Source: Tetrapyrgos nigripes (taxonomy: Eukaryota; Basidiomycota; Agaricomycetes; Agaricales; Campanellaceae). Taken from it: 64,000 bases of DNA. Location of the stretch: contig JAACJM010000018.1 of assembly GCA_013368315.1 (NCBI GenBank), forward strand, positions 496,001 through 560,000, in the 5' to 3' direction. The position numbers were made by a program, and so were the translations under genes. A model generated the notes under the pieces. It worked only from the letters and a program-made list of their open reading frames with translations, searched no databases and had not been told where the DNA came from. Numbering within the stretch: position 1 is the first letter of the stretch; every line of letters starts with the position of its first letter. Of this stretch, positions 12,549 through 57,108 are shown in pieces.

Positions 12549-13409
12549 TCACTTCTTAATGGAACCACCGGTGAGCCCTTTGGCATGGAAAAGTATCGTT
12601 AACGTTCTATTGTCTTTTTGTAGAGGGAAACGCAGAGACTCACAATACAAGGCAGTGTATTTGACTGTGATGGGCTCTGACCCCGGAGCACACTAAAAGA
12701 ACATCGTCAGTCGTTTCTTTTTGGGCTGAGAGAGCGAATACACCGTACCGAAGCTGGAGGTTGACCACTCCTGGTGTCCATGCGATAGACTTCGTCGGCG
12801 AGCAATCCCTCGATATTAGTCAAAAGAAGCCAGTCAATATCCGACGGGCCTGTCGGTGCGGGTATCCCAGCTGCTCTAGCACCAATCACAAAGGCGTCGG
12901 GATTGCCTGCAAAGGCACCAGAGGTGAAGTCCCATTTAGGATTGATGCCTGAGCCAGTGACAGGGTTGATGACGAAGTAGTGTTGTCCGAGAATACTCGA
13001 AGCTGCAGGTCCTGACAAAGGAAGGGACTCGATCGCAGTCACGGCATCCGTATAGACTGGGACCTTTTCCCAAAGCCGAAGAGCAGCGGATGGGAGTTCG
13101 GAGAGAAATTTGGTGCCGTAGAGGCAAGATACATCGAACAGTTCAGCCACTGCACCTGCAGTGCTACAGAATTATTGTAAACCTTGCAGAACATTGCTAA
13201 GAAAAAAGGACATCTTACGTGAAGCTGCCTGCGCTTGTGCAGGTATAGTTCTGCGTTCCGACTCCAAGAGCCAAGAAGGAAACTGGATGGGTCGGTGGAG
13301 TCAAAGCACTGTTTGCAGGAACGTCGACCACAGCGTAAGAAAGATCACAGCTGCGGGTAGGAACTGCAAGGGCCATGGAGGCAAAGAGGAGAGGAACAAA
13401 GAGTTGCAT
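12549..13409 (-). CDS. Secreted DUF3455-family protein
   Basis: A small secreted protein of the DUF3455 family, which is often mislabelled malate dehydrogenase in fungal genomes; its biochemical role is unknown. The start codon at 13409 opens a signal peptide MQLFVPLLFASMALA, with likely cleavage before VPTRS. Typical family segments follow: PVSFLALGVGTQNYTC at the end of exon 1, then AVAELFDVSCLYGTKFLSEL, ILGQHYFVINPVTGSGINPK and VYRMDTRSGQPPAS. After a further intron (GTACGG...TTTTAG) comes CAPGSEPITVKYTALY, and a last small exon gives WLTGGSIKK and a TGA at 12549. The gene is complete. A TATTTAAA at about 13479-13486 is a plausible TATA element 70 bp upstream. Confidence 0.8.
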
Positions 13410-14007: not shown

Positions 14008-15126
14008 ATGTCTTCCATCGCATCCTCGATCCTGCGTCTCCCATTTACTATCGGAACAATATGGGCTATAAATTTATCAATGACTCCTCCAAATCCACCT
14101 CCACTGGAAACAGAACTCGAGAAGAACCGATGCGAAGCCTCGGAAAATGGGGATTTTCGGAATGACACCACCGAAACAGTCACAGTGCGACGACCATTAT
14201 CCAAGGGAACGAAGAAAGCACCCGAATCAAAGCTACCCTTGGATAAAGACAAGAATGTGGCAAAATTCCCTTTACGAATTGGTGTGGCCAGCGGGCACTG
14301 GATTATCTTTGCAAGTTCCTGTCGTCATCCATTGTATACATGTGGATGCATACTTACAGTACCTTTCTTCCATGACAGGCTCTATTTCACATGTTTTGCC
14401 TCATTGAATCCTGCATACTTATCACCCTTGCCTTTCCAACCAGGGATCCTATTCAACGCTTCACTGTGGGGTACCTCTCTCCATTTGACCATCCTTTTCC
14501 TGAAGAAGATGCAGCTTATATTCCCGAGACCGATTTCATTGTGGATGTTTTGAGAGTGTCTCCTCAACTCATATTAGGGACTGTTATGGCTATGATGGGT
14601 GGGCTGCTGAGGTGGGCTTGCTATAGAGCGATGAAAGAGCTGTTTACCTTTCAGCTAAGTGTGAGGAAAGGACATAGACTGGTAGCATGGGGTGAGCTGC
14701 ATATAATTTCTCTCCCACCCATCTTATCCAAGTTTCATTCCGCTGAACTCAGGGCCATACGCGTATGTCCGCCATCCTTCATACACGGGAGCGCTTCTTG
14801 CAGGTTCGGGAACCATCCTCTCTCTCGTCGTTGGACGTGGTTCTTGGGCTAGGGAGTGTCTCTGGGAGTTTCTCTTCATGCTCGTAAGGTCATGTTATTG
14901 GCGCTGTGCACCAGGAAACAGTCTAAACCCCTCAATGTCGTGGAGAACCGAATCTTTTGATTTAGTACCGACGCTAGTCGTTCTGGCGTTGGCCCTGGCC
15001 CTAACGATAGTCGTATTTGTGCCAAGGATGAGGAAGGAAGACGAAATGATGGAAAGGGAGTTTGGTGAGGAGTGGAGGAATTGGAGTAGGAAGGTGAGGT
15101 GGAAAATGGTTCCTGGAGTCTACTGA
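14008..15126 (+). CDS. Isoprenylcysteine carboxyl methyltransferase-like (ICMT) membrane protein
   Basis: ICMT enzymes methylate the C-terminal prenylcysteine of CaaX proteins in the ER membrane using S-adenosylmethionine; fungi have many paralogs of unknown substrate. The ATG at 14008 gives MSSIASSILRLPFTIGTIW and MTPPNPPPLETELEK, a usual fungal ICMT N-terminus. Exon 2 begins at 14379 with ALFHMFCLIESCILITLAFP. A spliced intron (about 14690-14751) creates the cofactor-binding core HRLVAWGPYAYVRHPSYTGA. The C-terminus RMRKEDEMMEREFGEEWRNW ending WKMVPGVY is diagnostic. Between FLFMLV and PTLVVLALA there is a GTAAGG...TTTAG stretch (14884-14965) that looks like an intron, but removing it (82 nt) breaks the frame while reading through keeps it open, so the splicing there is uncertain. 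Confidence 0.75.
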
Positions 15127-15523: not shown

Positions 15524-16623
15524 TCAGACAGTTTGAGTCGCGCGTAATTCTGCCCTCAATCTCTCCAGCGCCTTCCCCAGTTCATTCCGTCCTTGACGAT
15601 CGGCACCTACTCCCCAGAATGCGTCCTTGTCCGAGTCCTTAACAAGATTGAGAATCTGAATGACAGAGTTGGAGAAAACTTGAAACATACCTCAATAAGC
15701 TCCGCATCTCCAGTGTCCAAAAGTTCCTGCTTGAGGTCTGAATGCTGGTTAAACTTATGGCGAAGAGTTACATCCATCTATATCGTCACAGTTAAGTAAA
15801 CAGGATCGGTCGAGTACTAATAGCAAAAACCCACCTTCTCAATATTGACGCTTTTCCAGTCCGGTCGAACTTCCGGCTGGAAGCGACGAGCTTCAGAAAA
15901 AGCAACGCTTGGTCGCTCCGAGCACGTTCGTATGTGTTCAGCTAGACCAGGTCTATGGTCTTGGAACTATTTCGCACATGTCAAGAGCGAAAAAGTTGCG
16001 ATAAAGCAGGAATAACTTGCCTTAAATGACTGGAACAGGTGTTCACTGGTAGGGTAACGTTTCCCTTTGTACATCACGGAATGAGATGAGAAGTTGGTGA
16101 AGCCATAGTGGGGGTCTTGTTTATGGTAGAAATAGACTTTCGGACGTATAGGACTGCCTTGGTGGGAATTGGAAGCAGGAGAGTTGGGAGCGGTGTAGAA
16201 CTGAGTAACCTTCAAGGTATCAGAAGGTTTCATAGTGTGCCGATTAGCCTGGTAGCGAGAGGAGAGAGGCCGAATGGGTGAAGTGTGGATTTCTTGGGCT
16301 GATTTCGACCGAGGAACCCCGCTGGGAGAAATGTGGTTCCCAGGAAGGGATCCGGTGCCGTTTCTGTTGTCATTTTGATTATCCACGAGACGTAGAAGAC
16401 GGTCGAAGTTCTGAGAGCCCCATTGAGAGGGGTGGATGTCGGAAGTGACATAGATGGTATGTTTCCTGCGCTCCTCGAGTTCGACGCGGTATTCCGCAGC
16501 TGGGATAGGATTACCAGGTGGGAGAGGGCTTGCTGGGCTGGGCATGACTGTATGCAAAGATGGAGGTGAGCTATTAGGAGATGGTGCTGGTGCCGTTCGT
16601 ATGAAGATTGAAGTACGAGGCAT
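15524..16623 (-). CDS. NADAR (YbiA-like) domain protein
   Basis: NADAR proteins act on N-glycosidic compounds related to NAD and ADP-ribose: bacterial YbiA cleaves early riboflavin intermediates, and some bacterial NADARs remove ADP-ribose from guanine. Here a disordered Ser/Pro-rich N-terminal half (MPRTSIFIRTAPAPSP...) precedes a complete NADAR domain: KVYFYHKQDPHYGFTNFS, then VMYKGKRYPTSEHLFQSFK, then FQDHRPGLAEHIR, RPDWKSVNIEK, MDVTLRHKFNQHSDLKQELL and finally DKDAFWGVGADRQGRNELGK. Conserved Gly-Phe-xx-Phe-S, the EHLFQ helix and the WGxGxDxxGxNxLG tail are all present, so an active fold is likely. Introns: 15967-16020 (a GC-AG intron), 15778-15834, and one of about 85 nt near 15650-15735. 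The frame is open upstream to 16911, but that part has no conservation I recognise, so the ATG at 16623 is preferred. It is transcribed divergently from a PARP gene. Confidence 0.85.
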
Positions 16624-17114
16624 TGGGGTGTTGGGGAAGATGAGAAAGGCAGACCTTGAGTATAATACACAAGCGCAGACCGGTGCTATATGATTTGCGG
16701 GAACACGCAGGCGTATAACAAGGAGGCTAGCGCTCTTTACCTCGCCATGGGCACGTTGAAGGGCCTCATGCAATGACGGTTGGATCAAAGGTGGAGTGGA
16801 CCAGTCACATGCGCCGTCCACCCACCTTCGGCAATTACCGGTACCTTTCATGGTTGACTTTTCGCGACGACAGCGGTGTATTTCACTCCCCTTCAACTGT
16901 CGGGAGGCCATGCTGGTAGCACCTAGTTTCTCGTACGGAAATACTGCTTATCTATGGTGTCAACCCCCCTGCATTCTACGAAACACCAAGGCCTCGTTTC
17001 CGCCTCCAGGTGCCAGAGTCGCTTAAGCTCTGTGCATGCTCGAATTGCATTGCTTGAAAATGGCTCGTTTTTAACCGGAAGCACAATTTTGGATCTACAA
17101 CACCCTTCCACGCA
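16624..17114. promoter_or_regulatory. Shared divergent promoter region between NADAR and PARP genes
   Basis: This 491-bp gap separates the NADAR start codon (minus) from the first PARP start codon (plus). Both genes must be driven from it, although a longer NADAR N-terminus would shorten it. No clear TATA element or operator was identified. Confidence 0.4.
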
Positions 17115-18225
17115 ATGTCGACTGATAGTTTTGCGACTGGATACGGAAAATCTACTAGCTCACTCACAAAATCCAAGCGGCTGGTTGCGATGGATCATTC
17201 TGACAAGGCCTATTCGGAAGGTATCCGGCTTCCTTACTGTTGAAGCTGTCCTATAGTGACCCAACCATTCTCTCATAGTCGAAAAACTCTTTCAAAAGGG
17301 CTGGAAACATCCAGAGAAGGGAAAACCGGTCATTCGGGCTATCTTCACAGTCCTTTCCCCGCAGAAAAGTCTTGACTCATATGCGGAATACAAGTATTTT
17401 GCTTTTAATTTGTGTTCGATTTCTCCAATCAACGTTTTGGTCAGGTTTCAGGTCCAAGTTGTGAATCAGCTTTCCAACTACCGCAGACGTGCCAACGAAC
17501 AGCTGCTGTTTCACGGAACCAGCCAGTTATGTCCATTAGGAAAAAATCCTTCAGCACCCCCGGACGTGTGCTCGCTACGAAGCTGTTCGCTTTGTTCCAT
17601 CATTAAGAACTCGTTTGAAATTCGCAGATGTGGTAAGTTGAACGGATCTTGTTACCTTTCCTCACTGACAATGGTGCCCTAGGGACCAGACATAATTTTC
17701 GCCGGTAGGTTTTTCTTCACAAGGAATTGCCTTACGAGTGCTGAAGAGTCTTTTGCATAGTTTTGGCAATGGCATATACGTTACTTCATGTTCCTCGAGT
17801 ACGTCTTAACTTTGACCCATCAAACTTTTCATCTGCTCATCAAGCTAACCACTGCAAGTAGAGGCAGACGACTACTTCTCCAGTCCACTTAGATCAAACT
17901 TCAGAGTACTCCTGGTCAATCGTGTCATCGTCGGGAAACCTCTGAAACGAAAATATAACGCTACCTCGTTGAACGAGCTCCCTAGTGGATATAACTCTGT
18001 GAGTTATTTCCATCCACGTACAGCGCATATCATCATTTTATTCCATAGGTGATTGGTGTCCCTGGTGGTGACCTCAACTACGAAGAGACTGTTGTCTACC
18101 ATAACGATGCAATACGCCCCGCTTATGTCGTGGTGTATGACATATCTCCTGCCTCTAATGAGGCTGCTCAGCGTTCGAGACTAGGATTTCTGAAAAGCCT
18201 TTTCAAGACGCCATTAGCTTCATGA
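17115..18225 (+). CDS. PARP-domain ADP-ribosyltransferase, catalytic domain only
   Basis: It should transfer ADP-ribose from NAD+ to a protein, nucleic acid or small-molecule target. The protein starts MSTDSFATGYGKSTSSLTK and goes straight into the catalytic region: EKLFQKGWKHPEKGKPVIRA, then LLFHGTSQLC (catalytic His), CSLRSCSLCSIIKNSFEI (Cys-rich loop), FGNGIYVTSCSSKADDYF (catalytic Tyr) and NYEETVVYHNDAIRPAYVVV (catalytic Glu, codon 18085-18087). The triad H-Y-E is complete. Introns: 17221-17278, 17394-17444, two around 17636-17759, then about 17801-17862 and 18000-18049; each restores frame. It lacks the N-terminal Cys-rich modules of its two neighbours. It is divergent from the NADAR gene and convergent with the next PARP gene (105-bp gap). 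Confidence 0.8.
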
Positions 18226-18330
18226 ACTCGAGTTGAAAGACATTAATCATTATACATATTTATCAACAGGTCGACGAATCATAATTTAATACCAATTTCC
18301 TTCCCTTTCGTAGAGCTCGTTTCCTTCTCA

Positions 18331-19485
18331 TTATTTGCTGTACATGATCACGTATAATGGGTTGATAGCGTCTGCCGTTGGGACAAACAACGATTTGTCC
18401 ATCGGAATCTGCATGGCCATTTCTCAGTCCTCTGGATGCTCTCAAGCTCCGGCAAACATACCTCAACTGCGTTGTCGACAACCACATCACAAGCGATCAT
18501 AACGCGATATGGGGACGATGTGCACGAGGTTGCAAAATGATCGGCTAGTTCTGGGTTCCTGTAGGTGTAGATACCTGCCCCGAACCTGCAGGTATGTCAA
18601 TCGCATGTCCTTGTAGCATTTGCCGCGTTCTCACCTCCCCAGGTTTGCTGTTTCCCCGAACGCAAACGTTCGGAATGCTGATTTCAAGATGCAGCATGTT
18701 CCACACGACTTGAAGTCGCATAGGACAGGCTGCTGAACGCCGAGATTGCAGACACATTGCGAAGCGTGAAAGGTACGTAGTTCCTTTGCCGGACGAAGGG
18801 TTTGACTAAACTAGACATTGGTACTGATTTGGTTATGAACGGAAGAGACTGCAACTTACCTGTAGGTTGCATGTCGATTCTGAGCATCTCGTGGGAGAAT
18901 AACTTCGTAAACCTTCTCTACGGACGGTTTGACTTGTGAGTCCCACTCGCTGATGAACTGGGTCCGAACTGGCATTCATCTTGGTCAGTAGCGAGATTAG
19001 GGGCTTCAGGTGAAAAGACCGTAAGTACCTTGTTTGAAGGTGGATCCATTCATATTTAGTTCCCTCATCTTCGTCTTTCCAGATCCATTCCGGTCGCAAT
19101 TGATGCACAAATCTCCAATGCTACGAGGTTGGATTCCGCAAGCATCACAACCCTGTACTTCCCCTTTTCGGACGGCTTCTTTCGCATGAGTTTCAGAGCA
19201 GAAATCGGCGAAACCGGGTTTCCCGGTAGCTCTGCATCCACGTAGAGTGCATGACTTGGGATTAGGACCAGGACCACTTCGTGCGCACGTTCTGCTGCAG
19301 TATGGGTGCTTGAATCCATTCTCGACATATTTCGGTTTCTTCCCGCAAGTCTGTGGACGATCAGTCCCATCCCGTCACCATGTCGAGATAATCACATCTC
19401 TTCTCACCTCGCAAAGATCGTTGGGCGAAAGCTGAGGACGTTGTTGAGCACCCCAGTGGACGACGTGTTTGACAAAGGCAGCCAT
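18331..19485 (-). CDS. PARP-like protein with three Cys-rich modules and no catalytic Glu
   Basis: A paralog of the two flanking PARP genes. It begins MAAFVKHVVHWGAQQRPQL and carries three zinc-binding-type modules: CGKKPKYVENGFKHPYCSRT with following Cys, CTLRGCRATGKPGFADFCSE with following TH, and CDACGIQPRSIGDLCINC. The catalytic region follows: QFISEWDSQVKPSVEKVYEV, RTFHASQC (His kept, the next Gly is Ala), LCDFKSCGTCCILKSAFRTF, RFGAGIYTYRNPELADHF (Tyr kept, SSK element changed), and the end KSLFVPTADAINPLYVIMY. Where both neighbours have Glu seven residues before the DAI motif this gene has Ser (codon 18391-18393, TCG). The rest of the frame is open through about six introns, so it is not decaying; it is best read as a pseudoenzyme, ADP-ribose reader, or an enzyme with altered chemistry. 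Confidence 0.75.
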
Positions 19486-19707
19486 GGTGGTGGTTTAGGA
19501 GATAGAGGCGAGGGTGGGATACGCCTAAGCTTCCAAATTCAAAGCTTTAAGTACACGCTGAAGCCTCGTTGTACACATCAAGGTTCAAACGTTTTCCACG
19601 CTGATTCCGAGCATGGCCCTCCTGGTATCGATTTAAAGCTATCCTAGAACAGGTCTTTCAACCTCATCAAGTCTCCCTCTTACATCAACGACTCCTGGCG
19701 AGTCATA
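19486..19707. promoter_or_regulatory. Short divergent promoter region between PARP paralogs 2 and 3
   Basis: Only 222 bp separate the two start codons, so both genes probably share regulation. No specific operator was recognised. Confidence 0.4.
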
Positions 19708-21681
19708 ATGAGCGTTGCAGCAGTAGCCTCCGGTTTGCCACTGGCGTTGTCTTTTCTTCAAACCGTGGCTAATCAATACCCCGGTTTGACCAAGTCTCAG
19801 CCTACGACTACTACAACTGTCGTGCCTGCTGTTGCTCTACCTCCACCTCCTGCACCTCCGCCCCTTCCACCTCCACCTCCGGCTGCAGCTCCAGCGGCAC
19901 CAGTTGTACAACCATCTGCCAATCAAACATCTCAGACATCTACCAATACTCCACCAAATAATCAGGCGAATGGAGGCACCCAGTCTGTGCCAGTCAAGAC
20001 GCCTCCAGCGACGTCATCGTCATCCCTTTGCGAGGTATTATGCTCTTTCTGTTTTCCAAGCTTTTTAAAGTTCATTTCCTGTTGATTTAGAATTGTCATC
20101 TGAAGCCCAAATATTTTGATGGCACCAAGACGCACCAATACTGCTCAAAGACCTGCGCACGAGCGAAGACTGCCGCAAAAGCGTCGTCTCGCGGCCTCAA
20201 TCAGAATGGTTCCGCGTCAACTAACCCAGCAAACTGTGATGTAAGTCTTCTCCTTCTTTGTTAGACAAAGAGATGCGAGTGAAATCCGTAGTTCTGTCAT
20301 ATCAGACCCAAGTTTTCCGGCTTTAGTTACTGCAGCAAGACGTGTGCAAGAAACTCAGGATCTTCCAATCATGGTTCATTGACAACCTCTGCATCAGGAG
20401 CTAGTGAGTCGATTTCCAATCTACATCGTATTGTGTGTATCTTACGAACGGCAGAAGGTCTTTGCCATGCTCCTGGATGCCAGAAACCCGCACATATCAA
20501 CACGAATGGAAGCACTGGCGAATACTGCTCTCTAAGCCATAAGGCGTGAGTGCTTCTAAGAATCTTTCAATTTCACACTGACTTATTCACCAAAGCCTCG
20601 CCGAGTCAATATGTCTAATGTGCCTTCAAGCTCCCAAACTCGCCCAATCTCAATTTTGCAGTAGGAACTGCGAAGACGAAGCTGAAAAAAAAGGGCCGAT
20701 CATTCTTGAAGTTCCTGCTGGCCATGTCACCTTCAAGAGTGGTAGGTGTTCTAAGCCTTTTTCACTTTTTGTCGCAGAAGTCTCACATAATTTCATTAGT
20801 GACTGACCAGTTCAAAGCATCTTGGAGACATCCTGGTACCATATGTCCGCCTGTCAAGCGTGTATACAAGATCATAGCCCCGAAGGCGCAGTTGACGGCA
20901 TACGACACTTATCGGTACGGCATCCATTCATTTTTCTTCATGAAACAGTGGTTTTTGACTGACATCCTGCTTACTCACCTAAACAGAGCCTCCGTTGAGG
21001 CCCGAGGTCAATTCGTTGCCGCGGGACGTTCACCCGGTAATGAGAACAGGAGATGGCACGGAACTCGTCGGGAATGTCATTTGGGTGACAAAGGCCAGAC
21101 TCAATTTTGCAGCTCTCTGACATGTTCCTTGTGCTGCATCGTACGTACGTCTTTTGATTTAAGTTTGTTCGGGAAGAAGACGGGTTGGGGAAGGTGAGTA
21201 AGGAAGGAAATGCCGGCGTGAAGTGTTTAAGAATGAATGAAGTCTGATGCCGGTGCGTTTGCGTTTTCCGTTTCTTTAGATTTGGCCGAGGGATATATAC
21301 CTCTTCGACTTCGTCCAAGTGCGTATTAGTTGTTTAAAGCCATGGTGTAACCGAAGTAATCGTTCGTTGCTATTTCCATAGGTCGAATGACTACTCGCAG
21401 AACGACTGCAAGTCCCCTCTCAAAGCTATACTACTGAACAAGGTCGTTGTCGGCAAAGGATGCAAGATGACTCAAGATAACACTTCGCTTGTCGCACCGC
21501 CGACTGGATATGACTCTGTGAGTCTTTCAGATCATCTCTGATACTTGCTTCTCGATGTACTGACGGCGTCATTTAACACTAGGTTCTTGCAGAGAAAGGT
21601 GGCACTTTGAATTATGACGAGCTCGTTGTCTACACCAATGACGCTATCAGGCCATCTTTTCTGGTCATGTATGAAGCATAA
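19708..21681 (+). CDS. PARP-domain ADP-ribosyltransferase with four Cys-rich modules
   Basis: The N-terminus (MSVAAVASGLPLALSFLQTV) leads into a polyproline/alanine linker and then four Cys-rich modules spread over separate exons: LCENCHLKPKYFDGTKTHQY with CSKTC, PKFSGFSYCSKTCARN, LCHAPGCQKPAHINTNGSTG with EYCSLSHK, and ICLMCLQAPKLAQSQFCSRN with C. The catalytic domain has FKASWRHPGTICPPVKRVYK, RRWHGTRRECHLG (His), FCSSLTCSLCCIVRTSFDLS, RFGRGIYTSSTSSKSNDYS (Tyr) and NYDELVVYTNDAIRPSFLV (Glu, codon 21619-21621). The triad is intact, so it should be an active writer. At least seven introns interrupt it. This architecture (zinc-type modules before PARP) is found in Agaricomycetes families. Targets are unknown. 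Confidence 0.8.
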
Positions 21682-24521: not shown

Positions 24522-25267
24522 TCACGCCAGACCCGGGAAGAACCACCATTGAACGTTGGCCGCGTATCTTTCCCAATCATCTGGGAAAAGCTTCTTCATT
24601 TGTGCGTCCTCCGCCGCCGCTCTACTCAGTCCAACTGCCAACGTCCACATCCACCATGCAGCGCATACGACGATGGCACTGCTGTTCGCGCTGAGAGGCC
24701 CGCATTCTGTAAACCAGCTTCCTTTTGTGAGGTGGGATAATCCCAGTCCCATGATCATAAGCATTGATCCTGTGTAGGCGGGATGACGAACGTATGCGTA
24801 AAATCGGGAAGTGATGAGGCGGTGGTTGGGGTGGATGGTTAAATCAAAGGTGAAGAGTTCTCCGAGGGTTCTGAAGCAGTCGAGACGTATGTAAGAGCCT
24901 AGAACGACTGCCACGGCTCCTATCACGAAGGTCGGAGACGTGTGGATATTAGGATTGGAGGATTTTGGACAGATGAGAGTCGAGGTCGGGGATAGATATG
25001 ACAGCGAGAAGTGATCGGAGAGAAAATATAGCGACTCGAATAAAGCGCATATCCAAGCAACGGTCATATGTATCTGTCGAAACCTCCATTAATTGACGAA
25101 TTGTAGACGAAACGACGACGTACCTTGAAGATGAAAGGGGCAATCTGAAGAATATACAGTTCATCCTTATGGTAGCGCGTCTTCTCTTGAGTTTTATTTG
25201 GAGGAGTGCAGGCCAGGCTATTCGCCAGAGCTTGCACTAGGACGAGAGATACGCGAGCGAGGGACAT
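24522..25267 (-). CDS. Isoprenylcysteine carboxyl methyltransferase-like (ICMT) membrane protein, second copy
   Basis: A complete two-exon gene. Exon 1 from 25267 encodes MSLARVSLVLVQALANSLAC and CTPPNKTQEKTRYHKDELYI; the intron is 25074-25123 (GTACGT...ACAG). Exon 2 carries several membrane segments and the family core: IRLDCFRTLGELFTFDLTIH, HRLITSRFYAYVRHPAYTGS (SAM and prenylcysteine site), and the C-terminal AEDAQMKKLFPDDWERYAAN ending WWFFPGLA. It should act in an endomembrane; the natural substrate of these fungal paralogs is unknown. It is clearly related to but diverged from the copy at 14008-15126, and the two flank the NADAR/PARP block. A TTTATAAA at about 25335-25343 is a plausible TATA box. 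Confidence 0.8.
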
Positions 25268-25712: not shown

Positions 25713-28700
25713 ATGTCCACCACAGAATGGTCTCCTTCCACTTGGAGATCAAAGCCTGTTGCCCAGGTGCGAATTCTTGTCCTTAGTATGCATTACCACC
25801 CTCATCCATGCACCATTTAGGATGTCGAATACACAAATCAAGATCAGTTGGATAAGTCAGTTTACATGGATGTAGCTATCCCGAGTCGCTGAGGATGTTA
25901 ATACGAGCAGAGTACTTCACAAACTGGGGACACTTCCGCCCCTGGTCACTCCGTCGGAGGTCTGTCGCATAAAGCTCCGTATCATGGTCAAAACGCCAAC
26001 AGACCCATCTAGATCGAACGCCTTCGGTACCAACTCGGTCTTGTTCAGCATAACGAGGCGTTTCTCCTTCACGCGGGCGACTGTGCCGAGAGTTTTGATG
26101 CATGTACACATGTACGTTATCCGCAAATCTATGCAGCACGGATCTTTGCTTATTTTCGACAGGAAAACATTTCGACCAAGATCGGATTAATTCTATCTTT
26201 TTCACTCATCCTTGTTTGGGGTGGTCGTTTACCTATTGTAATCCCTTCGCCTTACAACAATTCTTGTTCTGAGCATTTGCCGTCCAGGTCCGTATCGGTC
26301 GAATTGCAGGGCAATATGCAAAACCACGAAGCAGTAAAACGGAAAAGGTTCGAGACAAAGAGGTGCTAAGCTTTAGGTGAGTGCGATCATTGCCCAGACT
26401 TGGTCACTTTCTGAATCTTACGACATAGGGGAGATAATATCAACGGGTAAGCCTTATCCCTGGCAGGACCTCCTCGATTTTGAACGGAGAATTTTTGTTC
26501 CATAGACTCGACCCTGATGACCGCACTCCGGATCCTGAGCGACTCTTACGGTGTGCCTCAGCCCTGATACCAACTCTGCTATCGCTCAATCCCCTTTCCT
26601 AGTGCATACTTTCACTCCACAACCACGCTCAACTACATTCGCGGTCTGCTCACGTCAGGTTTCGCCTCCCTTCACCATCCAAGAGACTGGTCATTGAACC
26701 ACGTTCGGTCACCTTCTCTCCGGCGTGAATTCGAAAACATCGTCGATTCGCTATCGGATGCACTGGATTTTAGTCGTACTATTGGAGCTGATACAAGTGG
26801 TTTATCGTATGAGCGCGGAGGAGGGCGGGGAACGCTGGCCGAGGTTGACTTCTATACGAGGTGAGTGAGCGCTTGAGCCCTCTAGCTTTTGGTTTTGGCT
26901 TTTCTTCTCCCACCATTCTCCCATCTATTCTTCAATCTAATGTTGTATTGTATCGTCGTCCTTCGATAGGATAGATACACAGATTACATTTTGCATTTCA
27001 AATTATCTTATCTTACCCTCAATCACTTGGTACTAACGCCACCTCATGTTAGCCACGAAGGCCTCAGTCTTCCCTACGAAGAAGCTCTCACTCGAAAAAT
27101 TTCCATTCCTTCGGGGATTAAATCTCGTGAACACACTAAGACTTTCGAGTCACAGGAAAGCAAAGACAGCGACACAACTACGTATTACAACACTTCAGCC
27201 CATTTCCTCTGGATTGGTGATCGTACGAGACAGTTGACTGGAGCACATGTTGAGTATTTCCGTGGTATACGGAATCCAATCGGCATCAAAGTAGGACCTA
27301 GTATGAGTGAGGAGGAGTTGGTCAGGTTGTTAGATAGTAAGTGTTACGTATGGATTTTTCGTGATCTATCTCTGTTTTTCCTCTCAACTTCGGAGGAGAT
27401 AGAGTCAAGGATTGCTGACAGCTCTTTCTGTCTACCCGTGCAGTCGTGAACCCAAACAGAGACTCGGGCAGAATCACCCTGATCACTCGTTACGGCGCCT
27501 CAAAGGTAAAGTCCTCAGGGGTCGTCTCGATTTTCATTTTATTTCATTTTCCATTCCATTTTCTTCATTGTTCCTGTCATCGACACTTCACATCGCGCGT
27601 GTCAGTGGTTACTCCCCTGTTTTCGCATACATTCCTAAATACGTTTCATTGCCACCGTCGTGCTACCTTTGCTCATTGTATCATTGTATTCCTACTTATG
27701 CGTCTCGCACCTCGCTGGCGATCGATGGTGGCGCACATCGTGCTTTCGATGTGCCCCAACCACACGCATTAGTTACACATTTCAAAATATTTCAAAGGAG
27801 CCAACGTTTTCCCCTTGCATTCCTTCCCTTTTTTCTCAATTCCTCGTCGGCTTTAGGAACATTTACTTCACATTTATTCCTTGCAATTGGCTTGAGACCA
27901 CTTGCGTCGTGTTTTCACAAACTGACGTGATACTGACCTCGTTCATCCTTATCCTTCTTTCTGCAGATCGAAGAGTATCTCGCCTCTCATATCACTGCTG
28001 TAAGAAAGTCTGGGCACCCAGTGATCTGGGTATGCGATCCTATGCACGGAAAGTGAGTCGGAGTCGCCCCTTCTTTTCCTTCCCGTCCTCTGTCTTCACT
28101 ACAACGTCATCTATTCTATTCATCCATTTGTCCCTGCTAAACCATTTTTCCTGCCTCCTATTGGCTAACCAACGCATCTACGTACAGCACCCTAACCTCT
28201 TCCGGCGGCCTAAAAACCCGCAACTTCGGTACTATAATTAGCGAACTTACCGCTTGTCTCCGTATTCACGCCGAGAATGGATCACGTTTGGGTGGAGTCA
28301 GTTTAGAGTTTACAGGTGAATTGAACGATGAGGGATTTAGTGTGACGGAGTGTTTGGGTGGGAGTATGGAGTTGAGTGAGGAACAGCTTGGGTTGAGGTA
28401 TCAGGTGAGCATGGATATGAATAAGTTGGTTGAGTCGGGATCAGAGAATGTCGAGGACCGGATGGATGGGGGATGTCTGCGAGAGGCAGATGATCATGAC
28501 GAGCAAATGGTCAGGATAATTGATATCCACCAAGATGTCATGAGGTTGCCAAGGCGCTTATTCGAGAATCAAGGCGGACAACCGGATGGACGATGTCTAC
28601 GAGCGGACTGATGATTGTGACTAGTACTCAATGGTCTCCTCCAAGATGCCATGGGGTTACCGATATCTACGGAATATGTTTACTAATATGCCTTCTTTCT

Positions 28701-35199: not shown

Positions 35200-37114
35200 T
35201 CATAACCATACTCCCCCTTCTTGTACATGTTGTTTTAAAACATCTTGTTCAAGAAACTCCACAATTTCTCCACTAGGTCCTGCTTCTGTTTCAGATTGAT
35301 CTTCATTGTCACTCTCTTCTCTGACTTGAGAAGTAGATGGAGCTGGATCTGTTACAGTTTGTGAACGAGTAGCACGAGATTGAGAATGAGTCACTCTAGT
35401 CCATCCACCATGTGGTATATCTCTACTATGTTGCATGTTCGGATCTGTAATTCTCCAATTTGGTCTAGATTGACAATCTGAAGATCTAGTTTGATCTGAA
35501 TTAGGTTCTCTATTTTTAAATCTACCAGTAGTTAAGTCAACGTTACGTGGATTAACTGGTTGAGGACCTTGTACAGGTACAGGATCAGCAGGTACTTGAG
35601 CAGGTGGTTCTGGTGCAGGTGGTGGAGTTGGTTCACAAGATTGTATAGATTCTGTTTCAGAGTCATTTGGATCAGAAGGTTGGTGTGCACCAGAATTATG
35701 GTCATTGGAACTATCATCCGAACCATTTCCATCATCAATATTTTGATGATCACCATTACCTCCATCAGGTGGTGGACCTTGATCATCAAAAAGATCTTGG
35801 AACAGGTCATCTAAATCGAGGGGTACTACAGGTTCAGGCAGGAGATTATTTGTACCCTGTTTGTGCAAACTGTGCATAAGTTCAGAAGGTTGGGCAGGTT
35901 TGGTGGATTTGTCGCTTTCTTCTGTTTCAGATGATAAGACTTGTGGAAACCATTTCTCTATGAAGAGTGCTTGTGGACTAACAAAGAGTGAATTGTCACG
36001 TTGCATGAACAACCAGGCTTTAGAACCTTTTTCGTAACCAACAAAGATCATCAACTCTGATTTGGGGGAGAGTTTATTTACTCTTTTCTTTTCTGGAATG
36101 AATACATATGCAGCGCATCCACAAGAATGGAAATATGATACATCTGGTTTCTTTGAGTACCACAATTCAAAAGAAGTCTTCCATTTGAGTTGTTTTAATG
36201 GTGTGCGACATGCTACAAAAGTAGCAGTAGCAAGAGAAAATTCCCACCAAGAAGGAGGTTCATTTGCATGGTGTTGCATGGATTCTGACTTCTCATTGAG
36301 TGTTCTAATTATTCTCTCAGCACAACCATTCTGTTGATGTATGTATGGAGCTGATTTTGTCGTCTAATACCTTTTTCAGCAAGAAAGTTGTCAAAATCTT
36401 CATTCATGAATTCTGTCCCTAAATCTTATCATAACGTCTTCAGTTTTTTGCCAGTAGACTGTTCTGCCCAGGCAAGATACATCTTAAAAGACTTAAAGAC
36501 ACCAGACTTCCTAACTAATAGGAAGGTAACAGGGAAAGAACTAAAATCATCTAGAAAGACGACAAAATACTCGTACTTGTGATATAATATAGATGGTTGT
36601 TGTTTCACATCTGTATGCACAAGTTCTAATACTTCAGTAGCTTGTTTTTCTGATAAGGGATAAGATTTTGATGGAGTCTTGCCTAAGGCACAGCCTTGAC
36701 ATACACTACGTGGTTTTGGTACTTTAAATGGTTTTAAGCCTTTAGTATTTTCAATGATATGACTTTCCACTTCCTTTCCAGAATGTTCATAGCAGTTATG
36801 CACAATGTCATAATCTGATGACTCAGTAGAAGACGAACCTGAAACAGCTTTCCATTTCTTAGAAGAAGACGATGCTTTGGTATGATGAACAATAGATGTA
36901 GGTAAAGGTAAAGTGCGAATAAAGTTGGGATTTAACTATATATCATGAAGTTGAGTGTTTAGGGTAACACCATCAGTGCGCATAATAAATTGAGCAGGAG
37001 TAGGCCAGTAACCTCTTTCATTCAAGGAAGGAGGCTTTGAAGGGACGGCTGTGGAATCCATTTATGATTGTGCATATCAGAGAAAGCTTTATTCATGATA
37101 TAACAGCAATAATA
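35200..37114 (-). pseudogene. Copia integrase remnant
   Basis: The zinc-type GAG-pre-integrase part (HNCYEHSGKE, then SVCQGCALGKTPS) and the start of the DDE core (LELVHTDVKQQPS) lie at 36429-36803. After a stop and a frame change the core goes on toward NEDFDNFLAEKGIRR. A long open frame (35200-36279) holds the integrase end ANEPPSWWEFSLATATFVAC, HSCGCAAYVFIPEK and an acidic, low-complexity linker toward RT. No protease with an intact DSG was found upstream. Confidence 0.75.
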
Positions 37115-38244: not shown

Positions 38245-39432
38245 CTACTTGTGTCGGTACGCCTGTGGGTGTTCCTGATGAAATTTCTCAACCATGTCTA
38301 TTACGTTTGACAGGTTGGATGTGGGAACCCAAGAATTCTCAGAGTCAGGGTAATCTAACCATTTGATCAGGTATTGAGTCCCCTTTCTATTCCTGGTGGG
38401 TTTTGAGTCGAGTATCTTTTCCACATCATAGTCTTCATCTGCATCCAGTAATTCCGCAGGTGGTTCAGGGTAATTAGGTCCATGTGCGTCAGTCTCAACG
38501 TATGGTGACAGTAGCGATGCATGAAAGACGGGGTGTATTCGCCAGGTCTTTGGTAATTTTAACTTGTAGTTGACCTGGCTGATTACTTCAATGACTTCGA
38601 ATGGCCCATGATGACAATCAGACAACTTAGCTTTTGGTTTTGTCATTTTTAGATTTTTCCTGTCAAGTAGTACTCTATCCCCAACTTTGTACCCTTTCCA
38701 TGGTATAGAGTGGTTTCCGTGCTGATTCTTCATGGTCTCTGCCGCTGAAGATAGACTGGCTTTAAGCTCTTCTCTGAGTTGGTTGAGGTTTTCGAGTCGT
38801 TGTTCGACTGTTGGTAAGTGGGATGTCGGGTTGAACGCTGGGAAGAACCACGGTTGATATCCATGTAAGAGTTTGAACGGCAATTTTCCGGTTGCTGAGT
38901 GAATTCTAGTGTTATGGCTAAACTCTGCATATGGTATGTAATCCACCCAGTCTTCCTGTCGGTAATTGCAGAAGATCCGTAAGAACTGCTCTAGTGCTTG
39001 ATTGTATCGTTCCGATTCTCCATCGGTCTGTGGGTGATAAGCTGTGCTCAGGGCTGATTTTACTCCGAGTTTTTTGTGGACTGCGGCCATCACTTTGCTA
39101 GTGAACTGTGGTCCTTGGTCGGAAATCATTTTATCCCACAGTCCATATCGCCGCCATGTGTGATCAAGCAGGAGATTGACCATACTGTCACTATCAATTG
39201 TCTTTGTGCACGGTGATATAATGACAGTTTTTGTTGACCTGTCAACGACAACATGTACTGCATTGAATCCTTTGCATTCGGGGAGATCCGTAAGAAAGTC
39301 CGTTGTGATAGTGCCGAAGGGTCGTTCTGGACTTTCAGTGGGTACCAAGGGAACTTGGGTCAGGTTATTATTTGGTTTCATCAGTTGACATTTGGCGCAG
39401 CCGTTTACGTAGTCTCTGACAAATACTGACAT
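38245..39432 (-). CDS. Chromovirus integrase with C-terminal chromodomain
   Basis: The open frame of 395 codons begins inside the integrase after the zinc-finger portion (VNGCAKCQLMK). The DDE core is visible: TITTDFLTDLP (first Asp), MISDQGPQFTS (second Asp) and the HPQTDGESERYNQALEQFL segment with the Glu. The C-terminal GPFEVIEVISQVNYKLKLP and HPVFHASLL motifs follow, and the protein ends in a chromodomain: YDVEKILDSKPTRNRKGTQY then LIKWLDYPDSENSWVPTSNL. Chromodomains steer integration to modified histones. This is the best-preserved part of the element; in life it would be processed from a Pol polyprotein. Confidence 0.85.
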   Translation of the reverse strand: MSVFVRDYVNGCAKCQLMKPNNNLTQVPLVPTESPERPFGTITTDFLTDLPECKGFNAVHVVVDRSTKTVIISPCTKTIDSDSMVNLLLDHTWRRYGLWDKMISDQGPQFTSKVMAAVHKKLGVKSALSTAYHPQTDGESERYNQALEQFLRIFCNYRQEDWVDYIPYAEFSHNTRIHSATGKLPFKLLHGYQPWFFPAFNPTSHLPTVEQRLENLNQLREELKASLSSAAETMKNQHGNHSIPWKGYKVGDRVLLDRKNLKMTKPKAKLSDCHHGPFEVIEVISQVNYKLKLPKTWRIHPVFHASLLSPYVETDAHGPNYPEPPAELLDADEDYDVEKILDSKPTRNRKGTQYLIKWLDYPDSENSWVPTSNLSNVIDMVEKFHQEHPQAYRHK

Positions 39433-39436
39433 ACCT

Positions 39437-41332
39437 GGCCACCAGAATTCTCTGCTGACTAGTTCATAGGTCTTGTATCTCCCAGGGTGTCCCGCTGCCA
39501 GAGAGTCGTGGTGTAACTTTATGATGTCTCGTCGGAGATTGTTGTCGGCTGGGACATAGATTTTTCCACGGAATAGTATAATCCTGTCCTCGTAGTTCCA
39601 TTCCTGTAGATTTTTTACCAGAGACCATGGTCCGTTTCATAGGATGACGTCGAGGGCACTCACTACTTCAAGGTCCCTTTTGGGGGACTCTTTGATTCTT
39701 CGTTGTAGTTTTGTGTCTCCTATGGCAGTTACAGCCCCCTGTCTGGTTGCTCGGATATGGAAGAACTTAGGGTCAAGCAAAACCCTGTTTGCATTGTCGT
39801 TTTCTATCCCAATTCGGTGGTCTGGTTGTCTGGACAATGGATCAGCTTTGTTAAGGCTTCCCGGTTTATGGAGCAGGGAGAACTCAAATCTAGTAAGGAA
39901 CAGCGCCCATCATGCTTGTCGTCGGCTAAGTTCTGAGCCGTCTGGAAGTATGTCAGGTTGTGATGATCAGTCAAGATCTTGATGGAGTGTGGGGCTCCTT
40001 CTAGGTAATGTCGCCACGCTTCCAGTGCCCATATAATCGCAAGTAACTCTTTGTCATGGATGTCGTAGTTTCGTTCCGTCTCGGAGATATAGGCTACTGG
40101 ATGCCATCAATTGTCGTCTCCGGTTTGCATGAGTATTCCCCCTGTTGCATATTCCAATGCGTCAACTTCTACTCGATATGGTTTGGTATAATCGTGGAAG
40201 TGAAAGCCGCTTTGAGGGTTCGGAAGGCTTTCTCTGCTGGTTATCCTTCTTGGTTAGGTTGAACAGTGGTTGTGCGATTTTTGAAAAGTCTTTGATGAAT
40301 CGTCTGTAAAAGTTTCTGAATCCCAGGAATGCTTGTACTTCCTTCACTGTTTTTGGTGTTGGCCAATCGATTACTCCTGCTACCTTGGCAGGGTCCATTG
40401 CTAAGGTGTCATGGGAGACGATAAGACCTAAGAAGTCGACCTTATCAGTTTCGAAAGTGCATTTTTCCGGCTTCGCATATAAATCATTGTCCTGTAAGCG
40501 TTGTAACACCCTTCGTACGAGTTTACGGTGTTCTGATAAATCATGGGTGAATATGAGGATGTCATCCATATAAATAATGACCTTCCCTTGATCAATGAGA
40601 TCCTTAAAGATTGTATTCATCATTGCTTGGAAGGTTGCGGGTGAGTTCATAAGTCCAAAGAACATGACTGTTGGTTCAAAAAGTCCTCAATTGGTCTTGA
40701 AGGCGGCTTTCCATTCGTCCCCTTCCTTGATCCGGACGTTGTTATATCCCCATCGGAGGTCGATTTTGGAGAATACATGCGCGTTTTTGAGTTTGTCAAT
40801 CAATTCTGGGATAAGTGGTAAGGGATACGCGTTCTTTATGGTGCCCTTGTTCAGCTCTCTGTAGTCCTGTACAGGTCGTAGTTTTCCATCCTTTTTCTTG
40901 ACGAAGAAGAAAGGACTTGCCATGGGTGACTTCGATGGTTTAATGTATCCTTTTTTAAGATTTTCATCTAGGAAAGAGTCTAACTCGGTTTGTTCGTTGG
41001 GTGATAGAGGGTATGTTTTTGCATGTTTGCGGTTGAAAGTCTTCTTGCAGTTCGATTGCGTGGTCCCAACTGCTTTGTTGGGGTAGACGTTCTGAGGTTT
41101 CTTTATCGAATATCGACAAGTAATTGTGATATTGTTTGGGGATTCGTTCTTCCAGTGATGTCGGTTGGTCTGTTGTTGGTTTGTTTTCAGCGATTTGTTG
41201 TGCTTTTGTAAAAGCTGCTCAAATACTCAGCTTGGTTCCTAGAATGATATCGTGTTTACCGATGTCCGTAATATAAAATTCGGAAGTTTCCTCGTGATAC
41301 GATTTTCGATCCTGTGTATAGATCCGTAACTT
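39437..41332 (-). pseudogene. Chromovirus reverse transcriptase and RNase H, broken
   Basis: RT motifs occur in one frame: [37 protein letters not shown], then after a TGA at 40687-40689 MFFGLMNSPATFQAMM, VIIYMDDILIFT (catalytic YMDD), FLGLIVSHDTLAMDP and EVQAFLGFRNFYRRFI. The RNase H portion ([11 protein letters not shown] region near 39960) and the linker into integrase have further frame changes near 40160, 39900 and 39640. The upstream link from protease ([14 protein letters not shown] segment near 41100) is also shifted. It cannot yield an intact Pol. Confidence 0.8.
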
Positions 41333-53832: not shown

Positions 53833-54727
53833 AGTGGTGTATTAGGGAATATTTGCATTGTGAGTCTTTTTTTTCTGTCTTGGGCCTGGATTGTGATTTC
53901 TGATATAACAATTCTGAGATGCCCTTTCTTCCCGGCATAACCAATGAACGGATATGTTGAACCATTGTTTGGATGTGGAAAAAGTGTCTCAGTCACTCAC
54001 AAAAGGTAAACATGTGTTGGTATGGTTCTATGTTATCCTTCCCGTATATTAACCTGTAGATCAATCCAAAATCTCATGATCACTGGCAGGAGAGCTCAAG
54101 CACGAGTTGATCAAAGATCAGTGATTGACGCTGGTATCGGCAGTGGTGTATACCCAGCTGCGTAGATAAAGGTAATTAGCCCTTGTGGAAATTGCATCGA
54201 ATCTGCCTAGGTCATTGAATTATTTATATTTATTGAGACAGAATGGTCTGCACCCCACAATGAAGATACACATTTGACGTGTGTTTGCCATGCTCATGGT
54301 GGACCTTGTGGCTGTGGCCACTTGTCAGACACCACGCAAACAGTGTATTCTCCTGAACCTATACTATCTGGCCATGGGTGTCAAAACACTTGTAATACTT
54401 TCGGTTATCCATGCATCATATCTCTCTCAGCAAAAAGTCAACACTGAACACTCTGCAATCGACGACTCTGTATGTCCTATAGCAAGGGTATCTAACATGA
54501 GGATCGGTCACTACAAATACCCACGTCCTCATAATCTGAACACTCTTCGATTGACGGGTCTAGGGTACTGTAGCAACAATCAGTAAGGTAATAGACGCAG
54601 ACAAGTTGGAAAGCCAGTCTTACACATACGCCAGACGTCTAATATCGTGGAGATCCCTTGAAGAACAGTCAATGCCATTGCCATCAATGACTTTGAGTGC
54701 CAACACTGCTGAGGACAAAGACCATAT
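53833..54727. other. Intergenic or transposon flank, no gene recognised
   Basis: Short frames only. A minus-strand frame (54620-54997) overlaps the beginning of the helicase region; its product is not recognised. Confidence 0.35.
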
Positions 54728-57108
54728 GTGACGATTGAAATCCGTTTTCGTTGTGGATGTTGCGACAAACAGAAAGCCGTTAGAAATACCCCGTTCAACA
54801 ATGTTGGCCAATGGGTCCCAAACCACCCAGGAAGAAGGCAACACCAAATCTTCAATCGACCAACGAACCAACGAACATGGATGATCCAAAGAACAATGTC
54901 GGGAATCTGCAACCTGCAACCGTGTGCCGATAGGAACAATAACTGGTTCCCCACACATTGGAATCAAAATACCCTTCAAGCAATCCATTTTGATCAATTT
55001 AAATGTTCAGATGACCATATAGGTGTACGTGAACAGCGCAGGCAATTAGACATGCAAGAGATGACAGATTTACTGGTCAATATGGGATGGACAAATGCAA
55101 AATGTGACTTGAAAAGCCGTATACCAGCCTCTTTTGACTATCCCTTCAAAAGTTCAAATGCATGGAGATTGGAAATTGCAAAAATGAAAAGAAATGTGAT
55201 AACAGATAGATTAAAACAGAACAAAAACAAGCCAAATACCTTTCCTAATAAATTTCCTGATCAAGTAGAAATCCTCGATCAACATATATTTGAGGAGAAA
55301 TTCAAGAGCAATCAGACAAAAAAACTCATAGACGATTTATGTATCAAATTTAACTTGAATCTAGAGCAAGAACGGGCTTTTTGTATTATTGCAAACCATG
55401 CAGTCAGTTCAATTTTAGACCAGTTGAAGATGTATATTGGTGGTATGGCAGGTACAGGTAAAACTCAAGTGCTGAAAACTCTCAGAGAGTTCTTTAAACA
55501 AAGAGATCAAAGTCATCGCATGATAGTAGTTGCACCAACTGGAACTGCAGCAGCTTTACTTCAAGGCTCCACTTATCACTCAGTGTTTGGGATCAATTCA
55601 TCAGAGGAGGGTGAGATTTGGAAAATGTCTATATCACAAATTTGTTCCAGACTAAGTGGTGTAGATTATGTTTTTTTAGATGAAGTTTCAATGCTTTCAT
55701 GTAAAGACCTGTATAAAATCAGTGCTAAGATGGCCACTGCTTTGAATCAGCCTCTCCTTCCATTTGGTGGGGTTAGTATGATATTTGCTGGTGATTTTAC
55801 ACAATTGCCACCAGCAATGGGTGGTGAAAGTGTCTCATTATATAGCCATACCATAGGTTCCAGTTCTTCAGACCAACAAGCTAGTATTGGAAAATATTTA
55901 TGGCATCAGGTCAACACTGTAGTACTCTTGAGGAAAAACTGTTGGCAAACTGGGGATTCAGATAGAGATATAAAATTTCGTCAAGCATTGGAGCACATGA
56001 GATATAAGAAATGCACTACAGAGGATATTACTTTCTTACGGTCATTGATATCAGACCCTTCAAATGAATCTCGTTCTATTGATAACCCTCATTTCCGCAA
56101 TACTTCAATAATTTTAACTTACAACAAACACAAGGACGTGGTTAATGAACTGGGCAGTAAACGATTTGCTGCAGAGACAGGACAAGTGCTCACGCACTTT
56201 TTCTCTGATGATGAGCAGGTTGTTTTTGATGAACCTCCTTCTAAAACTCATGATCGCAAACGCAAACGGAGAAAGGCTACAAAACACCAAATTGATGATC
56301 AAGTACAGCAGCAACTTTGGAAGCAATCCCCTTCAACTAACACTATGCAAATTCCTGCAACTCTGTCCCTGTGTAAAGGTCTGCCTGTGATGATTCGCTT
56401 CAATGGTGCAACTGAGCTTTGTATAACAAAAGGTCAAGAAGGCACAGTACATGGATGGCAAGCTAGGAAAGGAAAGCATGGTCAACTAGTGCTGGATGTG
56501 CTGTATGTCAAACTGGAAAAGCCTCCTACAGATGTCCATTTCAAAGACCTCCCCCTCAATGTTGTTCCTATTATCCCTGTAAACTGCCTGACGACAGGAT
56601 CATTCAGATCTCTAGAACTCAAGTAGAGGTCCTGCCTAATTTTGCAATGACTGACTTTGCTTCACAAGGAAAAACACGCGACCCCAATGTTGCAGATATA
56701 TACAATAGTCGTGATTTTCGGGCCATTTATACTGCTTTGTCAAGGAGCTCCAGTGCAGATGGGACTATGATCTTACAGGGTTTTAATGTTAATCATATTA
56801 CAGGTGGAATAGGCAATAAAGGTGGATATCGTCAAGAACTAAGGGAGATGGAAATTTTAAATGACATCACTAAGTTACGTGCAGATCATAAATTGCCTCA
56901 TTCAATTATTGGGGACTTGAGGGGATCACTCATACAACAATATAGATCACATTTTGGAAATAGACATACACCTGAAGAGCTTCATGACAGTTTAGTATGG
57001 GATGCAGATGAGAAATTTGAGTCTACATTGGACAAAGAGATTTCTTGGAAAATTCTAGGAGAAGAAGAAAAAACAAAACCTCCAGCAAAAAAAAAAGCAA
57101 TCAGGTAA
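54728..57108 (+). pseudogene. Helitron-type PIF1 DNA helicase, frameshifted
   Basis: An SF1B helicase of the kind carried by Helitron rolling-circle transposons. The reliable part starts around 55052 (MQEMTDLLVNMGWTN). Motifs in order: LNLEQERAFCIIANH, Walker A GGMAGTGKTQ, APTGTAAALLQGSTYHSVFG, Walker B YVFLDEVSMLS, FAGDFTQLPPAMGG, VVLLRKNCWQTGD and LPVMIRFNGATELCITKGQE. Near 56590 the frame shifts: one frame ends SFRSLELK at 56626 while the next continues QISRTQVEVLPNFAMTDFAS, QGKTRDPNVADIYNSRDFRA, YTALSRSSSADGTMILQGF and ITGGIGNKGGYRQELREMEI, ending KKKAIR at 57108. No Rep/HUH domain is found upstream, so the element is truncated or is an offshoot. The first 100 codons of the open frame (54728-55040) show no helicase similarity. 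Confidence 0.8.

Follow-up and report, generated by a model that had tools for sequence, protein, structure and literature searches.

A block of four adjacent genes in a 64,000-nt stretch of the Tetrapyrgos nigripes genome (the whole of which we call the window) combines one NADAR gene with three PARP-type genes, here named PARP1, PARP2 and PARP3 after their position in the block and unrelated to the human genes of these names. Measured against random placement in a genome assumed to be 30 Mb in size, this PARP-NADAR block is non-random and conserved in Agaricomycetes. It is rather probable that the block is a conserved cluster for reversible ADP-ribosylation, with tankyrase-like PARPs as writers, the NADAR as eraser and PARP2 as a non-catalytic member, acting on a nucleobase or small nucleotide in a regulatory or housekeeping role.

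Conservation analysis was based on the best 120 of 597 NADAR, 284 PARP3-type and 159 PARP1-type protein matches. Rows had to carry both a species name and a contig; 34 NADAR, 24 PARP1 and 18 PARP3 rows that were metagenomic or lacked a contig were excluded before counting. Two genes were taken to share a contig if they came from the same species and from contigs of equal size in bp; between different species, equal contig sizes occurred in none of 8,194, 8,705 and 9,716 row pairs. Among the listed matches, a shared contig is seen for NADAR and PARP1 in 35 of 45 species, for NADAR and PARP3 in 42 of 47, for PARP1 and PARP3 in 49 of 53, and for all three genes in 27 of 32, compared to about 2.5, 3.4 and 3.1 species expected for the respective pairs under random placement. 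Contigs of at most 200 kb account for 6 (NADAR-PARP1), 7 (NADAR-PARP3) and 9 (PARP1-PARP3) of the linked species; some other contigs are several Mb long, and sharing there says little. As related species are not independent, the tail probabilities of the linkage are not to be taken literally, and mixed assemblies of one species can create false misses. Linkage of NADAR and PARP genes was found in four orders, Agaricales, Jaapiales (Jaapia), Polyporales (Panus, Irpex) and Hymenochaetales (Rickenella), and also in Abortiporus, which we take to belong to the Polyporales; linkage of PARP1 and PARP3 extends to Thelephora (Thelephorales). A first-pass annotation, made from the letters of the window, had proposed to regard the block as accidental if the adjacency were absent in relatives. 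Linkage turned out to be widespread among comparable species, so that this ground falls away, and accidental adjacency is rejected by the shared-contig counts.

Gene tags give a finer view of the spacing. In five of seven species with sequential gene tags, the NADAR lies one to three tags from a PARP: the NADAR/PARP1/PARP3 tags are 9881/9882/9884 in T. nigripes, 10991/10992/10994 in Marasmius oreades and 7648/7647/7645 in Amanita phalloides, NADAR and PARP1 are adjacent in Moniliophthora roreri (15210/15211), and NADAR and PARP3 carry 10019 and 10021 in Stygiomarasmius scandens. PARP1 and PARP3 are similarly close in Coprinopsis cinerea (11640/11638), Cerrena zonata (14317/14319) and Taiwanofungus camphoratus (8363/8361), and the recurrent one-tag gap between them may hold a candidate PARP2. 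Numbers in the style of the Joint Genome Institute also appear adjacent in Jaapia (40058/40057/40054), Mycena sp. (2163666/2163667) and M. amicta (1247735/1247736), although they may not be positional. Tight packing is also suggested by two metagenome contigs, each recognised from the equal listed size of its rows. The first (2,460 bp) carries NADAR and PARP1, whose closest named rows are in both cases from Athelia psychrophila (Atheliales), and the second (3,547 bp) carries PARP1 and PARP3, with rows from Amanita as the closest for both. A chance match in size is possible but unlikely, because the kinship of the paired rows agrees.

Within the 98.5-Mb genome of T. nigripes we found at least four NADAR loci and at least two loci of the window PARP family (locus counts are lower bounds), and only the window holds both. 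The 9.0–9.5 kb retrieved around each of the other three NADAR loci contain no PARP of this family, and the 9.9 kb retrieved around the other PARP locus contain no NADAR. PF00644 matches of other kinds on contigs C39, C156, C245 and C577 are not accompanied by a NADAR match. The PF00644 profile search of the genome left the window PARPs unlisted, probably because their exons are short, and spliced proteins were used instead. As to the other loci themselves, C142:107000-116000 contains a NADAR domain (match 4122-4586) in an uninterrupted frame of 434 aa that is 34–36% identical to the cluster NADAR, C238:6000-15500 contains a closer paralogue with 75% identity over one stretch of 112 columns, and C186:59000-68900 carries an apparent tandem pair of window-family PARP genes with matches near 3.8–4.4 kb and 6.7–7.5 kb.

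The linked NADARs differ from the unlinked ones in their N-terminal part. Similarity to the N-terminal extension of the window NADAR is present in 50 of 54 PARP-linked NADAR rows versus 7 of 16 unlinked rows (Fisher p 8e-5); conversely, 9 of 13 rows without the extension are unlinked, compared to 7 of 57 rows with it. Since extension-bearing NADARs are preferentially linked, long contigs alone do not create the linkage. Three Mycena species (M. galericulata, M. latifolia and M. crocata) carry a linked NADAR with the extension; their other listed NADARs have neither the linkage nor the extension. In Cyathus and Crucibulum two NADARs, of which only one has the extension, lie on the PARP contig, and Hypsizygus and Irpex have linked copies that lack it. 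Membership in the PARP cluster thus seems to be preferentially held by one specific kind of NADAR. In a poorly resolved tree of the NADAR domain, a single group of 73 rows takes in 52 of 54 linked rows and also 8 of 14 unlinked ones; the tree was built on few columns, with 42 of 81 inner branches open and 2 of 86 rows excluded for lack of the motif.

Spliced gene models built from the four frames gave clean reading frames. They bear out the first-pass description of a NADAR gene followed by three genes in alternating orientation, with gaps of 491, 105 and 222 bp in the order NADAR, PARP1, PARP2, PARP3. All introns of the four genes are 49–86 bp long and follow the GT-AG rule apart from one GC-AG donor in NADAR. 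The 491-bp region between the divergent NADAR and PARP1 genes is a possible shared promoter. Start codons are a matter of choice: the NADAR frame remains open upstream of the chosen start and the NCBI model of this gene begins further in, so the size of this gap could change. In the NCBI annotation, D9758_009881 corresponds to NADAR (97% identity over 92% of the query), D9758_009882 to PARP1 and D9758_009884 to PARP3, the last being identical to our spliced protein; D9758_009883 is presumably PARP2. The NCBI models of NADAR and PARP1 deviate from the spliced ones at the start or in introns, and that of PARP1 seems to retain an unspliced intron.

Features of the block and its surroundings (positions within the window; the DNA span of the NADAR domain was derived by hand from its aa range)
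Feature	Coordinates	Strand	Description
NADAR gene (predicted YbiA-type)	16623..15524	-	311 aa, 4 exons: 16623-16021, 15966-15835, 15777-15691, 15637-15524
NADAR domain	15542..16134	-	aa 164-306
NADAR N-terminal extension	16135..16623	-	about 163 aa
Divergent NADAR/PARP1 intergenic region	16624..17114	.	491 bp
PARP1, predicted tankyrase-like ADP-ribosyltransferase (ART)	17115..18225	+	260 aa, 7 exons, one of 22 nt
PARP2, degenerate PARP with N-terminal cysteine modules	19485..18331	-	293 aa, 6 exons
PARP3, predicted ART behind four Cys/His modules	19708..21681	+	473 aa, 10 exons; modules at aa 108-252
DUF3455 protein	12710..13171	-	
Gene resembling ICMT/phospholipid-methyltransferase by eye	about 14376..15123	+	left flank; no Pfam match for one stretch tried
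ICMT/phospholipid-methyltransferase-like gene	24525..25088	-	right flank
Class-II DAHP synthase (PF01474)	26970..28608	+	exons
Retroelement domains	35203..36363 and 38248..39636	-	retroviral SH3 (PF25597); integrase H2C2, integrase core, Tf2-1 SH3, chromodomain
Long frame matching PIF1-like helicase	54713..56623	+	possibly a Helitron, possibly an ordinary PIF1 gene

In a Pfam search of the four proteins at E<=1, NADAR matched PF08719 across the full profile (E 7.6e-37, 127.5 bits versus a curated cut-off of 35.1). Its residues E194, K201 and E274 align with E43, K50 and E125 of the NADAR from the oomycete Phytophthora nicotianae, whose structure was solved with ADP-ribose (PDB 8BAU); on this sequence basis it is assigned to the YbiA class and not to the DarT1-linked class, which bears an Asp. 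Read by eye, the same alignment matches the ADP-ribose contact R79 of 8BAU, and the contacts K75, Y84 and D86 have no matching residues in the window NADAR. Among the 54 PARP-linked rows, the SEHLF motif is conserved in all and the motif of the third Glu in 51. The YbiA class is described as close to plant and fungal NADARs of flavin biosynthesis (PMC11543638), and what eukaryotic NADARs do physiologically is stated to be unclear (PMC11125620).

PARP1 and PARP3 likewise match their profile, PF00644, above the cut-off of 26.7 bits (E 1.7e-15 and 57.5 bits for PARP1, E 4.1e-11 and 43.2 bits for PARP3), with the triads H97-Y150-E215 and H338-Y389-E454, respectively. The H-Y-E triad is complete in 48 of 48 PARP1-type homologues; among 30 PARP3-type homologues, H and Y are present in all and E in 29. 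Between H and Y, all 48 PARP1-type rows share five invariant cysteines (103, 116, 121, 124 and 136 in PARP1) and all 30 PARP3-type rows share four, which suggests a metal site within the catalytic domain. Upstream of the catalytic domain of PARP3, every ligand-like residue of the four Cys/His modules is conserved in 28 or more of the 30 rows, and PARP3 shares 53–71% identity with 29 aligned homologues. Among solved structures, tankyrase comes closest to a predicted model of the PARP1-type homologue from C. cinerea, so the PARP1-type catalytic domain is predicted to have a tankyrase-like fold. For PARP3, the structure prediction was of low quality (mean pLDDT 53.9) and was set aside. The NCBI model of PARP3 from S. 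scandens diverges at its C-terminus.

PARP2 is the degenerate member of the block. Its match to PF00644 stays below the cut-off (E 0.052, 13.5 bits), and the active-site positions hold HAS (H183) instead of HGT, a retained Y233 and a Ser instead of the catalytic Glu, the Ser position having been assigned by counting back from a shared DAI motif. Thus, the three PARP-domain genes of the first-pass annotation stand by resemblance, except that PARP2 does not reach the Pfam cut-off. The N-terminal cysteines of PARP2 resemble the module pattern of PARP3, the overall plan is similar, and a weak match to PARP3 was the sole other one in a search of the genome with PARP2. We read PARP2 as a putative pseudo-enzyme; with its catalytic residues gone, it is a candidate for a reader role only. 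In the tree its branch is very long (6.6 changes per column; a single sequence, whose placement is unreliable), and on this one sequence it alone looks fast evolving. A recent tandem duplication as origin of the three PARPs was rejected, as the PARP1-type and PARP3-type proteins form separate groups that each span several orders and PARP2 is very divergent.

In the mechanism that we propose, PARP1, which has little beyond its catalytic domain, and PARP3, perhaps steered to its target via the cysteine modules, would transfer ADP-ribose from NAD+ to the target, and PARP2 would serve as a non-catalytic regulator or binding subunit. The NADAR would cleave an N-glycosidic bond and so remove the mark or a by-product of it; the enzymes are presumably active, and the NADAR would reverse what these PARPs make. 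Rather than protein, the target may be a small nucleotide or a nucleobase, namely guanine in RNA or DNA. We lean to this target by analogy, because NADARs are reported to reverse guanine-linked ADP-ribose in DNA and RNA (PMC11543638, PMC11125620, PMC11833690), and bacterial NADARs were inactive on phosphate-end marks (PMC11833690) and on uracil marks made by PARP10 (PMC13036486). The earlier idea of writer and eraser encoded together is strengthened by the non-random block and by the catalytic residues kept in NADAR, PARP1 and PARP3, and does not extend to PARP2 as a writer. The cluster is presumed to be old and vertically inherited. In its most specific form, an ancient Agaricomycete system that reversibly ADP-ribosylates a nucleobase (guanine, in RNA or DNA) through PARP writers, a pseudo-PARP binder and a NADAR eraser, the reading is tentative, possible rather than probable.

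Several observations weigh against a joint ADP-ribosylation system. On the listed contigs, NADAR-PARP1 linkage is missed in 10 of 45 species (Abortiporus biennis, Athelia psychrophila, Ephemerocybe angulata, Lentinula edodes, L. raphanica, Moniliophthora roreri, Mycena capillaripes, M. epipterygia, M. filopes and M. pura), NADAR-PARP3 linkage in 5 of 47 (E. angulata, L. raphanica, Lyophyllum shimeji, M. capillaripes and M. epipterygia) and PARP1-PARP3 linkage in 4 of 53 (A. biennis, L. raphanica, M. citricolor and Plicaturopsis crispa). Of these, M. roreri is a false miss, as its adjacent tags show, and some missed rows derive from different assemblies of one species. The tags are looser in Amanita inopinata (NADAR/PARP1/PARP3 6614/6610/6596, 18 apart), Psilocybe cyanescens (NADAR and PARP3 7271 and 7291, 20 apart) and Amanita polypyramis (PARP1/PARP3 3068/3058, 10 apart), and M. 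pura has an extension-bearing NADAR that is unlinked. Since PARP1 and PARP3 seemingly fit within 3.5 kb on one of the two metagenome contigs, leaving scant space for PARP2, this gene may not be universal. PARPs of this fold usually modify proteins. The inactivity of bacterial NADARs on uracil and phosphate-end marks also counts on this side, as does the activity of bacterial and plant NADARs on riboflavin intermediates (PMC11543638), by which the cluster NADAR could be an unrelated housekeeping enzyme.

These points bear on three other explanations. If the PARPs modified proteins as tankyrases do, the NADAR might clear released small-molecule ADP-ribose derivatives; the tankyrase-like fold predicted for the PARP1-type model would agree with this, as would the small-molecule role proposed for viral NADARs (PMC9503650). 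We regard it as unlikely. It is a point against it that Pfam, searched at E<=1, finds neither the ankyrin repeats nor the SAM domain of tankyrase in the four block proteins. Slightly less likely still is a passive linkage without joint function, in which a YbiA-like riboflavin-damage enzyme lies beside old PARP duplicates in a slowly rearranging stretch. The riboflavin activity of known NADARs, the nearness of the YbiA class to the plant and fungal flavin NADARs (PMC11543638) and the spread of the cluster over 10–20 gene tags in three species speak for it, but it would have to account for linkage in 35 of 45 and 42 of 47 species from four orders, including 6 and 7 species on contigs of at most 200 kb, and for the excess of unlinked rows among NADARs without the extension.

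The first-pass annotation had suggested a possible role in defence against mobile elements, viruses or rivals, and a defence or self/non-self module, with PARP toxins restrained by NADAR as in the bacterial DarT1-NADAR and YarT-YbiA pairs, would be in line with the toxin-antitoxin nature of such pairs (PMC11543638, PMC11125620), with the compact layout around a divergent gene pair and with the very long branch of PARP2. This view is weakened by the conservation of PARP3 (53–71% identity) and by linkage kept across orders, unlike most arms-race genes, which are more often patchy and fast-changing. Furthermore, no bacterial PARP1-type relative was confirmed among 26 pattern matches in a single scan of genome contigs, in which distant relatives may have escaped, and DarT is described as highly diverged from PARPs (PMC11833690). 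We therefore consider a defence module quite improbable; because conservation is wide, a regulatory or housekeeping role would fit the reversible ADP-ribosylation cluster better.

The block is flanked on the right by an ICMT/phospholipid-methyltransferase-like gene and on the left by one that looks similar by eye. Retroelement stretches lie at least about 13.5 kb from the cluster. An Rfam search of the window at the gathering threshold gave zero matches, and a tRNA scan found none.

If the base-ADP-ribosylation reading is true, the block would hold the first eukaryotic NADAR-based writer-eraser pair for bases, as far as the literature searched shows. In that search, judged on titles and abstract openings, we found no fungal PARP-NADAR cluster, and an earlier mention is possible; the main text of a 2014 survey contains neither the word NADAR nor the word cluster (PMC4245714). 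The cluster names likely partner enzymes of a eukaryotic NADAR, whose function is testable in a tractable mushroom. Coprinopsis cinerea has PARP1-type (CC1G_11640) and PARP3-type (CC1G_11638) genes; a NADAR of this species is not among the matches listed.

Comparison with known proteins points to a fungal tankyrase-like PARP family. The tankyrase catalytic domain (PARP5a/b), the best solved-structure match of the predicted model, shares its fold and H-Y-E triad with the PARP1-type proteins, which differ in lacking an ankyrin-repeat or SAM match and in having invariant cysteines between H and Y; the zinc site of tankyrase lies after the Y motif. In the text available of a 2010 survey, fungi have PARPs of clades 1 and 6 only (PMC2964712), and the window family is not placed on that tree. 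The block proteins belong to the same superfamily as these and have no Pfam match to WGR, BRCT or UBCc domains. The stand-alone NADAR of P. nicotianae (8BAU) is likewise eukaryotic and of the YbiA class, shares the E/K/E residues and is active on guanine-ADP-ribose; its N-terminal part is different, and it is not described as PARP-linked in the source text available.

The nearest known systems are DarT1-NADAR (DarTG1) of bacteria and YarT-YbiA of myxobacteria. In the former, an ART gene also adjoins a NADAR gene, but it is a prokaryotic operon with a much diverged ART and a NADAR of the BC4488 class, with Asp for the catalytic Glu, whereas the fungal block is eukaryotic, with several PARP-type genes in alternating orientations and a putative YbiA-type NADAR with Glu. 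YarT-YbiA resembles it more closely in that a YbiA-type NADAR adjoins an H-Y-[E/D/Q] ART in a two-gene toxin-antitoxin pair (PMC11125620). In contrast to this bacterial pair, the fungal block consists of intron-bearing genes with predicted tankyrase-like domains, includes a degenerate third PARP and remains linked across orders.

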